From Pseudooceanicola batsensis HTCC2597 (GTDB lineage: Bacteria > Pseudomonadota > Alphaproteobacteria > Rhodobacterales > Rhodobacteraceae), in contig NZ_CH724131.1 of NCBI RefSeq assembly GCF_000152725.1, forward strand, positions 1,227,856-1,291,855: 64,000 nucleotides of DNA. The letters run 5' to 3'. The first letter of the stretch is position 1, and every line of letters begins with the position of its first letter. Positions 12,717 through 15,980 of the stretch are shown piece by piece. Made by a program: the position numbers and the translations under genes. The notes beneath the pieces are model-generated. The model was given only the letters and a program-made list of their open reading frames with translations. It was not told the DNA's origin and ran no database searches.

Positions 12717-13056
12717 GTCAAGTCCTCGTCGGTCGTGCCGGCCGACCTGCACCGGCCCGCGCTACATGGCCGGGCCGGCGGATCGGGTCAACCCGAAGGG
12801 CCACGGGGCAAGACGCCGCATCTCCCCCCTCGCCGGCACCTCCGTCGGACGCCACCGCCGCGGTCCTCGGGGCACCTCGGGTTGCAACGCGATCACCACC
12901 TGTCCGCACCGTCGGACCGCCGGCTCGGATCGTGAAGGTCGAATCCGGAGGCCCGGCCCACAAGATCAGGCACCACACGCGACGACACGGCGGGGCTCAA
13001 CGGCACGGTGGTCGTGCTCACATGCCTTCGGCGACTATCTTTCGGGAACATTCTTC
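12717..13056. other. Intergenic region between ABC exporter and tRNA remnant
   Basis: About 340 bp with no convincing gene. It includes the promoter side of the ABC exporter gene on the minus strand. Short frames on both strands have no ribosome sites and no recognisable products. It leads into the tRNA fragment at 13057. Confidence 0.35.
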
Positions 13057-13104
13057 TGGAGCGGGCGACGGGAATCGAACCCGTATCATCAGCTTGGAAG
13101 GCTA
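13057..13104 (-). pseudogene. 3' fragment of a tRNA-Gly (TCC)
   Basis: Reading on the minus strand, the last 48 or so bases match the 3' part of tRNA-Gly. The anticodon loop CTTCCAA, an intact T arm ACGGG/CCCGT, the 3' acceptor strand CGCCCGC, the discriminator base and CCA are all present. There is no D arm and no 5' acceptor strand. The T stem and acceptor differ from the intact tRNA-Gly 90 bp away, but the T stem is still fully paired, so the fragment derives from a different functional tRNA rather than decay of a tandem copy. Such fragments are typical traces of elements that integrate at tRNA 3' ends. Confidence 0.75.
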
Positions 13105-13193
13105 GCCAGAAATTCTCATTTTCTAGAGAATTTTCAGTAACATGTTCGCTGATGCAAGGAGATTTTGTCGGCGATGTGTCGGATAGTTTTTGC

Positions 13194-13267
13194 TGGAGCG
13201 GGTAGCGGGAATCGAACCCGCACGACTAGCTTGGAAGGCTAGGGCGCTACCGTTACACCATACCCGC
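13194..13267 (-). tRNA. tRNA-Gly (anticodon TCC)
   Basis: Complete tRNA on the minus strand. The acceptor GCGGGTA pairs with TACCCGC, the D arm is TGGTGTAACGGTAGC, and the anticodon stem CTAGC/GCTAG encloses CTTCCAA (anticodon TCC, reading GGA). The T arm is GCGGG-TTCGATT-CCCGC, and CCA is encoded. It sits at the edge of the scar zone. Confidence 0.97.
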
Positions 13268-13701
13268 TCGGCAGTTCTTGAGGATATTTCACACCCTCGG
13301 GCATAGGTCAAGAAGGCTGAATGCCGGCCTTCCGAGAGCCGGCTTCGCAAGTTGTATGCTCCTGCCGCTACTAAAAGAGGGGCAACGTTTTGGCCTGCGC
13401 TCAACTGCTTCAGAGGGTCTCTGGAGCGATATCTTGCAAGGAGCGAAAGCTCGCTGATTTCCGCCTCGAGTGCTGCCAACGCAGTCGCTCGCGGCCCTGA
13501 GCGGACATCCACCGAAGGCAGAAATGCTGCAGCACACATGCCCGAAAGCAGTCGTTACAACGGCTAGGTTTTTGTTATCAGCATTCAGTCAAAGGCGGAG
13601 CAAAAGTCGGCCAGTTTTGCGATGCGCACCTTGGAGCGTGCGGCCCCCGAGTAGTAGGCAATTTCTAAGGCGCATTGGCCGTCGAGCCATTTCTTGTAGG
13701 C
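13268..13701. other. Gene-poor scar region between tRNA-Gly and the IS remnants
   Basis: No intact gene. It contains a small hairpin GCCGGC/GCCGGC (13323-13328 with 13338-13343), the first copy of a 29-bp direct repeat (13459-13487), and near 13590 a segment GCAAAAGTCGGCCAG of the kind found outside IS21-type elements downstream of istB. The region looks like accumulated debris of mobile elements. Confidence 0.4.
13459..13487 (+). repeat. 29-bp direct repeat, copy 1
   Basis: Starts TTCCGCCTCGAGTGCTGCCA and is identical over 29 bases to 29269-29297. Similarity continues at lower level for about 20 more bases (CGGCCC and GAGC blocks shared). On the minus strand both copies encode the peptide TALAALEAE, so they may be pieces of one unknown gene or element. 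Confidence 0.8.
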
Positions 13702-13869
13702 TCAGTTTCCGGATTTTGCGAGGCGGGCGCGGTTCTGGTTGAGGCGGTAGCTTTCGCCGTTCATCTCGAGGATGTTGACGTGATGATTCTGAGCTACCCC
13801 CCGAAATTCGGACACTGACATAAGCTACGATTTGCAGTCTGCTGATCTTCGACGAGAAGGAGATCAGAG

Positions 13870-14201
13870 ATGTCGAAACGCAAGCAGCACGCGCCTGAGT
13901 TTAAGGCCAAGGTCGCGCTGGAAGCCCTGAAAGGTGAAGAGACAGCGGCCGAGCTGGCGAGCCGGTTCGGGGTTCATCTGTTACCGGCAGGTGTTTGCTC
14001 TGCAAACACCGAGAGGCGACGATGATCCATCAATGGAAGAGGGCACTGCTCGAAGGCGCGTCCGGCGTGTTCGAGCGCGGGGGCCGCAAGAAGCCCGAGA
14101 TTGAGGAGGAGCAGGTGAAGGAGCTTCACGCCAAGATCGGGGAGCTGGCGGTGGCCAACTCTTTTTTGGAACGAAAGCTGAAGCCCTGGGGCGGGAAGTG
14201 A
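13870..14201 (+). pseudogene. IS3 OrfA (HTH, Tnp_8), interrupted
   Basis: Starts [20 protein letters not shown], the helix-turn-helix protein of IS3 elements. After FGVH the frame is interrupted by a 38-bp hairpin insertion (13979-14016) that replaces one codon position and leads to a stop at 14023-14025. Downstream the original frame resumes as [21 protein letters not shown] and continues to a stop at 14201, ending in the coiled-coil-like stretch EEEQVKELHAKIGELAVANSF. The normal product would be about 97 residues. Confidence 0.88.
13979..14016 (-). repeat. Hairpin micro-element, copy 1 (in orfA)
   Basis: A 38-bp insertion relative to the expected orfA sequence (codons for VHPTM). Read on the minus strand it is CCTCTC, then a 9-bp perfect stem GGTGTTTGC / GCAAACACC with loop AGA, then TGCCGGTAACA. 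It has the same architecture as copies 2 and 3 but lies in the opposite orientation. The insertion site on its own strand is GTCG before GAT. Confidence 0.85.
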
Positions 14202-14811
14202 GGCGCGGCATGATCGAGCCTGACCACCCGGATCTGTCGATCGGGCAGCAGTGCAAGCTGCTGTCAATCGCGCGCTCGTCCTATTACTACGAGCCGAAGG
14301 GCGAGACCGAGCAGAACCTCGGCCTGATGCGGCGGATCGACGAGCAGTTCCTGGAGACCCCGTTCTTCGGCGTTCGGCAGATGACCTGGCATCTGCGTAA
14401 CGACGGACACCTTGTGAACGAGAAGCGCATCCGGTGGCTGATGCGCCTGATGGGGCTCATGCCGATTTACCAGAAGCCCAACACGAACAGGCCGACGAAG
14501 GGGCACAAGACCTATCCCTACCTATTGAGAGGGTTGCGGGTGGAACGTCCGAACCAGGTCTGGTGCTCGGACATCACCTACCTGCCGATGCGCCGCGGGT
14601 TCCTCTACCTTGTGGCGATCATGGACTGGCACACCCGCAAGGTTCTGTCCTGGCGGATCTCGAACACGTTGGAAGCCCAGTTCTGCGTCGACGCGTTGAA
14701 CGAGGCCATCCACAAGTTTGGCCCGCCCGAGATCATGAACACCGATCAAGGAAGCCAGTTCACATCCTTCGCCTGGACGGATCGGCTGCGTCGATCTGGC
14801 GTGCGGATCTC

Positions 14812-14848
14812 CCCTCTCGCGCATGAAAACATGCGCTGCCGGGCAGCG
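14812..14848 (+). repeat. Hairpin micro-element, copy 2 (in orfB)
   Basis: A 37-bp insertion between the codons for GVRIS and MDVKG. The order is CCTCTC (14813-14818), a 7-bp perfect stem GCGCATG / CATGCGC with loop AAAA (14819-14836), then TGCCGGGCAGCG, which can itself fold (GCTGCC with GGCAGC). The insertion point is CTC before GAT. Confidence 0.88.
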
Positions 14849-14873
14849 GATGGACGTGAAAGGTCGGTTCCTC

Positions 14874-14912
14874 CCCTCTCATGGTTTGCAAGCAAACCAT
14901 TGTCGGGCAACG
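14874..14912 (+). repeat. Hairpin micro-element, copy 3 (in orfB)
   Basis: A 39-bp insertion between the codons for GRFL and DNIFIE, only 25 bases after copy 2 and in the same orientation. It has CCTCTC (14875-14880), a 9-bp perfect stem ATGGTTTGC / GCAAACCAT with a 2-base loop (14881-14900), then TGTCGGGCAACG. The insertion point is CTC before GAC, matching copy 2. Because 39 is divisible by three, it alone would not shift the frame. Confidence 0.88.
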
Positions 14913-15347
14913 GACAACATCTTCATCGAGAGGCTGTGGCGCACCCTGAAATACGAGTGCGTCTACCTGCATGCTTGGGAGACCGGTTCGGAGACAAAGG
15001 CGGCCATCCGGAAATGGATGACCTTCTACAACCACCAGCGCCCGCATTCAGCCCTCGGCGGCAAGCCACCGGCGCTGGTCTATTGGCAGAGAAATGATAT
15101 CAACCAACCCGATCAGCAGGTGCAACGAGTAGCTTAAATTACGCCAGATCCTGTCCAACAGATGGGGAGTAGCTCATTCAGCCGGTCCAGGAGCGCGCCG
15201 GTCAGGCGCTCGGTTCCGAAGGTTTCGGTTCCTCGAAGGGCAGATTCGAGGTGATCACGATCATCCGTATTCTGCATCAAAGCATGGATGTGGAACGGCA
15301 CCTGTAAACCGCCGGAGTGAGGCCCCACACCGGCAAAGCGGAAATGG

Positions 15348-15980
15348 TCAAACCTGCAAAATGCGCTTCATGCCGCTTTCGACGAAATCGACGTAGATCT
15401 CGATAATCTCGGGGTCGAGCGGCTTGATTAACGTGCCCGCGTCTGCATAGCGCATGAACAGAAAGGATCGCGCGCCCATCAGCATCGAAGCGACCATTTC
15501 CATTTTCTTTTCGTCCAGCGCATCGCCCCCCAGAATGCGGCGAAATGATCTGACGTAGCCTGCGACCAGCAGATCGTGATGCCGTTTGAAGGCGACAGGC
15601 GCGTATTGGCTAGCCTCGAACATCACACGATAGACATGGGGGTTGTCGACCAAATAGGCGATATTGGCTGCGATGCCTTTGCGCTCGACCTCGGCCAGAG
15701 TCGTCGCGCCGCGCACGGCCTTGGCGATTTCGGCCACCATCTCGGTTCCGATCTCGGGCAGCAGAACGTCGAACAGGGCCTGCCGTTTAGGGAAATGCAG
15801 ATAGAATGCGCCCTGCGCGATGCCTGCACGTTCGGTCACCCGCGAGATCGAGCATCCGGCATAACCATGCTGACCGACGACGTGCCCGGCACTTTGGATG
15901 ATAGCACGGCGCGTCTTTTCGTTACGAGCTTGCTGGGCAGGAGAAATTCTCCGCTGTCGTTTCGAACCTACTGTCTCCAT
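15348..15980 (-). CDS. TetR-family regulator of the adjacent catabolic operon
   Basis: A 210-residue repressor starting METVGSKRQRRISPAQQ. The N-terminal HTH spans roughly residues 20-65 (VVGQHGYAGCSISRVTERAG and FYLHFPKRQALF); the rest is the ligand-binding/dimer domain. A GTG eight codons upstream is an alternative start, but AAGG sits just before the chosen ATG. It is the last gene before the IS scar and lies on the same strand as the ligase-liv-acd operon 68 bp away. It probably controls that operon through the operator at 25603-25618, with an acyl-CoA intermediate as a likely inducer (inference). Confidence 0.88.
   Translation of the reverse strand: METVGSKRQRRISPAQQARNEKTRRAIIQSAGHVVGQHGYAGCSISRVTERAGIAQGAFYLHFPKRQALFDVLLPEIGTEMVAEIAKAVRGATTLAEVERKGIAANIAYLVDNPHVYRVMFEASQYAPVAFKRHHDLLVAGYVRSFRRILGGDALDEKKMEMVASMLMGARSFLFMRYADAGTLIKPLDPEIIEIYVDFVESGMKRILQV

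Follow-up and report, generated by a model that had tools for sequence, protein, structure and literature searches.

We found that three short hairpins inside one insertion sequence (IS) of Pseudooceanicola batsensis HTCC2597 probably belong to a family, new and apparently so far undescribed, of palindromic micro-elements found in Rhodobacteraceae, mobile but non-autonomous elements that would be moved in trans and spread by nesting in IS. The window, by which we mean the whole stretch of 64,000 nucleotides that was analysed, holds this IS and its inserts as follows.

13790 to 15176, plus strand: IS3-family insertion sequence hosting the three inserts, with inverted repeats at 13790-13802 and 15164-15176
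13870 to 13977, plus strand: first segment of orfA, open in translation, with few amino-acid changes compared to relatives
13979 to 14016, minus strand: inverted hairpin copy of 38 bp (CCTCTC, 9-bp stem, TGCCGG, tail TAACA), breaking orfA
14022 to 14201, plus strand: second segment of orfA, open in translation up to the stop
14210 to 14809, plus strand: main segment of orfB, open in translation
14812 to 14848, plus strand: hairpin copy of 37 bp (CCCTCTC, 7-bp stem, TGCCGGG, tail CAGCG), breaking orfB after RIS
14874 to 14912, plus strand: hairpin copy of 39 bp (CCCTCTC, 9-bp stem, TGTCGGG, tail CAACG), breaking orfB before DNIF
14913 to 15137, plus strand: last segment of orfB, open in translation up to the stop

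The original prediction had described three hairpins of 37-39 bp inside one IS3 transposase, breaking orfA and orfB, with stems that are perfect yet differ between copies and with one copy inverted. Alignment to intact relatives established the inserts, their exact sizes being 38, 37 and 39 bp and their stems 9, 7 and 9 bp, and the copy at 13979-14016 does read on the minus strand. The limits and tails needed some adjustment. CCTCTC, the stem and TGYCGG are present as predicted, but in the copies at 14812 and 14874 the element also includes the preceding C, which is paired to the G that follows TGYCGG; the inverted copy lacks this outermost C/G pair on both sides. TAACA, which had been given as the tail of the third copy, is indeed there, but it is a recurrent rarer variant of the tail CARYG.

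The terminal inverted repeats of the window IS are 13 nt long and 92% complementary, and its plasmid relatives, as aligned, have a length without inserts of about 1273. All three hairpins were missing from the approximately 90% identical plasmid copies of Sulfitobacter faviae, Thioclava and Haematobacter, the last of which was deleted across the first insert site, and in comparison to intact relatives no bases were duplicated and none lost at the window insert sites. By the finder, 15 of the 24 copies in a tree of the IS3 were element-free, some of the 15 being partial. The empty relatives, three aligned and those in the tree, rule out that the hairpins are ancestral parts of the IS, the alternative named alongside the prediction. 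Outside the inserts the segments are open, and dN/dS against two intact relatives was low, at 0.05 and 0.10 for the main segment of orfB and at 0.05 and 0.07 for the window IS; for these reasons the three inserts look recent.

In the alignment, different stems were seen at the position of the 14812-14848 insert in L121 and L281, and the site at 14874-14912 was also occupied in L120, L199, L212 and L281. Between orfA and orfB, L281 and L206 shared a further insert, about 38 bp long and containing inner inverted repeats (alignment columns 377-414), which is at most a candidate for this family. L206 is an IS3 copy near that of the window and carries two elements; its record is named as an actinobacterium (Enemella evansiae, JAFKDC010000020.1), implying contamination or transfer. 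A tRNA-Gly gene lies at 13194-13267, about 520 bp upstream of the window IS, with a weaker, sub-threshold tRNA-like match at 13068-13125.

The genome of P. batsensis holds one full-length copy of the window IS3. A strict scan of the 64-kb window for a perfect stem of 6 bp or more immediately 5' of TGYCGG returned the three hairpins only. With a looser structural finder they scored 12.5, 16.5 and 17, and three other window matches scored 10.5; as shuffle controls, three shuffled windows gave five matches at 10 or more and other shuffles two matches at 11 or more. In the whole genome the strict pattern occurred in two places and a shorter pattern in 30, the third copy among them, compared to 29 for the reversed control, and by these patterns there was no family member outside the window IS3.

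Dispersed copies with variable stems, as anticipated in the original prediction, were found in other genomes. The pattern CCTCTC-N14-26-TGYCGGGCARCG was present in 50 of 295 genomes of the same family, and its reversed control matched once; the folded element was present in 24 of 30 loci from the pattern matches, the remainder being chance. A covariance model built from 50 copies with 22-nt stems matched at least 112 of the 295 Rhodobacteraceae genomes (E 0.01), a lower bound with 22 candidates scored per genome and with a model that is weak on short stems, as illustrated by its lack of a match in the P. batsensis genome itself. Of 289 genomes drawn from across the class, 6 matched the model (E 1e-4), and four of these six belong to other families. 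When one genome per species was scanned, the matches listed (at least 119 stretches) comprised 85 that folded by the strict test and 12 more by the looser finder, and the titles of the matches listed were mostly Rhodobacteraceae or Rhodobacterales. Exceptions carrying the element include bins named Haliea, Niveispirillum, Muricauda, Acetobacteraceae and Hyphomicrobiales, and the Enemella record (L206); such non-Rhodobacterales records are possibly mis-binned or transferred. With one element type 92 of 72,556 plasmid records matched, and we take the genera in the best 60 of these to be Rhodobacterales; carriers among the plasmid matches include Dinoroseobacter shibae DFL 12, Ruegeria pomeroyi DSS-3 and Phaeobacter species. 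Phage records searched with one element type gave no match, and viral contigs with the pattern held a folded copy in 8 of 51 cases. The compiled set comprised 260 distinct copies, of finder score 13 or more and a few of them perhaps chance, at 185 sites, 37 of which were filled more than once. No Rfam family covered the three inserts (window 12900-15400, E up to 10), and no description of such an element was found in the literature searched, which left subscription papers mostly outside and does not establish absence from print. This is in line with the predicted mobile palindromic element without a named family.

In the hairpin, an outer stem of 3 bp is followed by a conserved 4x4 internal loop (TCTC/TGYC) and then by an inner stem of about 6-11 bp, which varies in sequence but stays paired. 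The 3' tail is 5 nt long and reads CARYG or, rarely, TARYA, the ends of the element being NCC..GGN' followed by this tail. In many copies a single base is extrahelical, at a position three pairs into the inner stem. The conservation of the internal loop is partly due to the searches, which required TCTC/TGYC. Length ranged from 33 to 45 bp in the 260 copies, within the limits of the finder, and was divisible by three in 41 of them. The tail had C..G ends in 245 copies; nine tails began with T, eight of these being T..A, and G preceded the insertion point in six of the nine. In an alignment of the best 150 of 195 matches (123 distinct rows) all 12 pairs had changed on both sides and 96.8% of cells paired, with a seed partly picked by folding and an alignment fitted to the model; none of 500 shuffles reached this value, and slid registers paired in 33-49%. 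The outer stem is the better covariation test compared to the inner stem: its inner two pairs, which were fixed in the seed, had compensated changes in new matches (3 and 1 rows) and were broken in 5 and 2 rows.

Some variation was observed around this architecture. Short-stem copies (GGCGGC..GCCGCC) at L126, L154, L164, L183 and L227, from Leisingera and a Rhodobacteraceae bin, shared the flanks GCCTCC before and GGGAG-T-rich after the element, and L063, L135 and L240 were similar to them. They may represent an intergenic repeat of the chromosome to which the mobile family is related, or from which it arose. At L228 (5463 and 6200) and L211 (4198), all in own-strand coordinates, hairpins with the same 5' half have a fully paired TCTC/GAGA stem where the internal loop would be, in one case followed by a GTAACA tail; they are a possible variant or relic class.

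Comparison of filled and empty sites at many loci indicated precise insertion without target duplication. The insertion point was mostly between C and GA(T/C)G, with G at +1 in 219 and C at -1 in 189 of the 260 copies and the full motif C^GA(T/C)G in 53 of them. One and the same site could hold different stems, namely three at RIS^MDG, five sequences at FL^DNIF and ten at the IS5 site LLI^DST. A recent insertion was seen in Leisingera, where the NJS201 copy is filled and the L. thetidis copy empty, their flanks being alike in 155 of 160 bases. Filled/empty polymorphism was absent among the best 12 of 53 records, both on Pseudosulfitobacter plasmids and between strains of a single species. For three loaded IS stretches, the matches listed included no near-identical plasmid copy that was empty. 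In the frame of the host gene 75 of 118 copies were sense and 43 antisense, with frames guessed.

The flanks of 162 first-round copies fell into 40 clusters, the largest of which (70, 28 and 10 copies) were IS3-type with some IS5, IS5 and IS21, respectively, with type names inferred from Pfam domains. A Pfam scan of 150 of the 162 flanks, which used guessed frames and counted by family instead of by flank, was left out of these figures. IS91, IS110, IS66, IS256, IS6 and IS1182 were further host types above the Pfam cut-off among cluster representatives and singletons, and an IS630-like flank cluster had a sub-cut-off match. Pfam assigned 4 of 20 singletons scanned to a transposase family and 2 to another family, with no match for 14. 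By BLAST, transposase sequence adjoined 26 of 30 top matches (one per genome, 30 genomes), a count resting on top-scoring copies of one stem class. The Pfam scan covered 20 of these 26, the other six being outside it, and gave a transposase family in 19, two of them below the curated cut-off. The four top matches without a BLAST match were transposase-like by eye in L277 and L290 and not so in L273 and L276. On the assumption of a low background, IS genes making up a small part of a genome, we judge the nesting in transposase genes to be strong. The IS5 copies L192 and L234 had six to eight insert-sized gaps compared to an intact relative, each a candidate element. Some copies were located outside IS, in cytosine methylase genes of viral contigs. 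The viral contigs L074, L087 and L096 have elements beside such genes, two of them at one common site with related stems.

Loaded and broken IS copies were found to have multiplied. On pDSHI04 of Dinoroseobacter shibae there are three 100% identical IS5-type copies with two inserts, an ordinary stop codon and differing flanks; the other long copies in this genome have 73-75% identity, three of them being shorter by as much as two inserts would take up. In Phaeobacter porticola (G075) the model matched five times in an IS3-type copy that is present at four places, two of them full length, and whose start region looks frameshifted by eye; no insert-free copy was seen among the IS3-type matches. 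Since these loaded copies are multicopy despite their extra stops and frameshifts, movement in trans is favoured, and the sequences point to this as the way in which they multiplied, rather than to removal at the RNA level.

We also searched for the mobilising enzyme, and none was identified; Y1 and Y2 HUH genes were absent from most carriers tested. Y1 genes were present in 9 of 45 carriers compared to 1 of 35 pattern-free genomes, a weak contrast in that at least 11 of these 35 were later matched by the covariance model. The 45 carriers are the 50 pattern genomes minus five likely chance cases, one of which (G088) was later matched by the model. Among 21 Y1 loci no Y1 gene was flanked by elements on both sides; at L242 an element lay some 560 bp away from the Y1 gene, and L249 had a truncated one at the contig end. 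Y2 genes were found in 10 of 37 element-rich compared to 4 of 37 zero-match genomes, and elements lay in or beside the Y2 gene at 5 of 30 Y2 loci, two of which overlap. A Y2 (IS91) mobiliser was rejected as it is not universal among the rich genomes. In the collected loci we saw neither an autonomous version with a gene in the loop nor a half-element with a distant partner.

The type of stem was associated with the site of insertion. In the IS3 tree loaded copies were scattered, some having empty nearest relatives (several supports are low), and loaded copies shared same-site stems with more distant loaded copies; flank identity was not raised near the insert. Among same-site pairs with flanks below 0.85 identity, stems were similar in 35 of 121, and none of 1000 permutations was as high. 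Between genomes 30 of 116 same-site pairs had similar stems compared to 1193 of 33,261 different-site pairs, and within a genome the counts were 5 of 5 and 20 of 259; the latter makes one dominant stem per genome too weak a cause of the association. In eleven pairs picked for their similarity the elements were 93-100% identical (8 of 11 at 100%) and the flanks 64-88% identical; the pair L202/L136, for which the wrong element had been compared, was left out of account. Two IS5 copies of Phaeobacter sp. 11ANDIMAR09 share an identical 41 bp at one site at a dS of 1.75, which is near saturation and rough. With each combination of site and stem class represented by a single copy, the target bases +2 and +4 varied with stem class (p 0.003 and 0.013, 14 positions, uncorrected), and no weight is given to base +3 (p 0.040). 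Stem and target sequences did not match beyond permuted pairs.

Descent alone does not easily explain the association of stem and site, and simple hitch-hiking does not predict it across the family; cognate enzyme variants or a homing-like process may be its cause. In the latter, each subtype would, like introns and inteins, preferentially enter other IS copies at the homologous site, with the stem or cognate enzyme variants coupling stem to site. Similar stems at the same site despite diverged flanks (30/116 and 5/5, above all permutations), the identical 41 bp in the Phaeobacter IS5 pair and the dependence of +2 and +4 on stem class would all fit such a process. However, unrelated stems also fill one site and the stems do not match their targets, and homing by homologous recombination is excluded, as flank conversion between IS copies was not seen down to 20 bp. 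We regard a homing-like process as somewhat unlikely. Less likely again is ordinary descent, by which the inserts would be old in the IS lineages, lost precisely from the empty relatives and conserved in their stems. It accounts for the same stem at the same site, stem similarity drops as flank identity drops, and by eye the loops differ more than the stems in several same-site pairs. Against it stand the almost identical elements between 64-88% identical flanks, in pairs chosen for similarity, and the open frames and low dN/dS of the window copy, which oppose a long-standing load. Precise loss would itself require a mobility mechanism.

It is very unlikely that the hairpins are REP elements and owe their mobility to a Y1 transposase of RAYT type, from the IS200/IS605 group. 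A small hairpin, a conserved unpaired end and the lack of duplication are as expected of REP elements, and the weak contrast in Y1 genes (9/45 versus 1/35) would agree, but 36 of the 45 carriers have no Y1 match, no Y1 gene is flanked on both sides, the GTAG tag is missing and the copies are located mostly in genes. Hardly credible is removal or bypass at the RNA level, by a mini-intron or translational bypass, with the loaded transposases still working. Precise insertion and the open window segments would suit this explanation; elements in both orientations (75 and 43, frames guessed), the other stops or frameshifts of loaded multicopy IS and the common same-site empty relatives argue against it.

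For a new family moved in trans, the reading that we prefer, an enzyme supplied in trans would recognise the folded strand by its internal loop, structure and tail, and would insert it precisely. Nesting may have arisen with IS genes as tolerated, repeated and horizontally mobile targets, and related transposases would move loaded, dead IS copies and carry the hairpins along. It is conceivable, if doubtful, that these gene-less hairpins of some 40 bp are a homing-like class which enters certain conserved sites in transposase genes, the stem or a cognate enzyme setting the site, and that they thereby live as hyperparasites, building up in transposons and silencing them. If the preferred reading is right, the hairpins would rank with the smallest mobile elements so far proposed; they would combine a conserved structure with a target motif and have their niche within transposons. 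They would provide a test case for DNA recognition by structure instead of sequence and a model for the persistence of gene-less elements through nesting in mobile DNA, and would bear on transposon silencing in a large bacterial family. The cultured carriers (D. shibae DFL 12, R. pomeroyi DSS-3 and Phaeobacter) make mobility directly testable.

The hairpins resemble several known systems in part. MITEs are non-autonomous and mobilised in trans, as is proposed here, whereas our hairpins have no target duplication by filled/empty comparison and, in the collected loci, gave no sign of fixed terminal repeats in common with a parent IS. Integron attC sites are recognised as a folded strand, with extrahelical bases and variable sequence. 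The hairpins would share these features, and no attC core boxes, cassette or array were noted in them. For IS91 and Helitrons the defining Y2 HUH transposase was found in 10 of 37 rich and 4 of 37 zero-match genomes only. REP and REPIN sequences with RAYT, the subject of PMC3116915, PMC2817692 and PMC3686654, are likewise short, palindromic, non-coding repeats with an unpaired conserved end, which keep their structure as the sequence varies. However, REP has a GTAG tag, lacking at the ends of our hairpins, and is intergenic, whereas the hairpins are mostly inside transposase genes and have the conserved internal loop TCTC/TGYC, unlike REP/REPIN. A carrier Y1 gene (RAYT) flanked by the repeat was not seen among our genomes (Y1 in 9/45 carriers; an element near the gene at 2/21 Y1 loci). 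Identity with RAYT/REP was thus rejected on its defining features, namely GTAG, a flanked Y1 gene and intergenic position. CGTC-tagged palindromic repeats, according to PMC3733652, have no dedicated transposase known, occur inside genes in R. conorii and are associated with transposase genes only fortuitously. They are alike in being palindromic and intragenic and in having no known transposase, whereas our hairpins have no CGTC end and are nested in IS genes at C^GA(T/C)G. IS200/IS605 differs in that here the whole element equals one hairpin with base conservation on the 3' flank, and that 36 of 45 carriers have no match to a Y1 tnpA. Alike between our hairpins and IS200/IS605, the subject of PMC6006769, are the hairpin near the ends, the lack of target duplication, the short flanking motif and, by analogy, one-strand cleavage. 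The likeness to single-strand transposition follows from the missing duplication, the folded strand, the unpaired tail at the joint and the short motif, and by this analogy HUH-like transposition of a single strand is quite possibly the nearest known mechanism.
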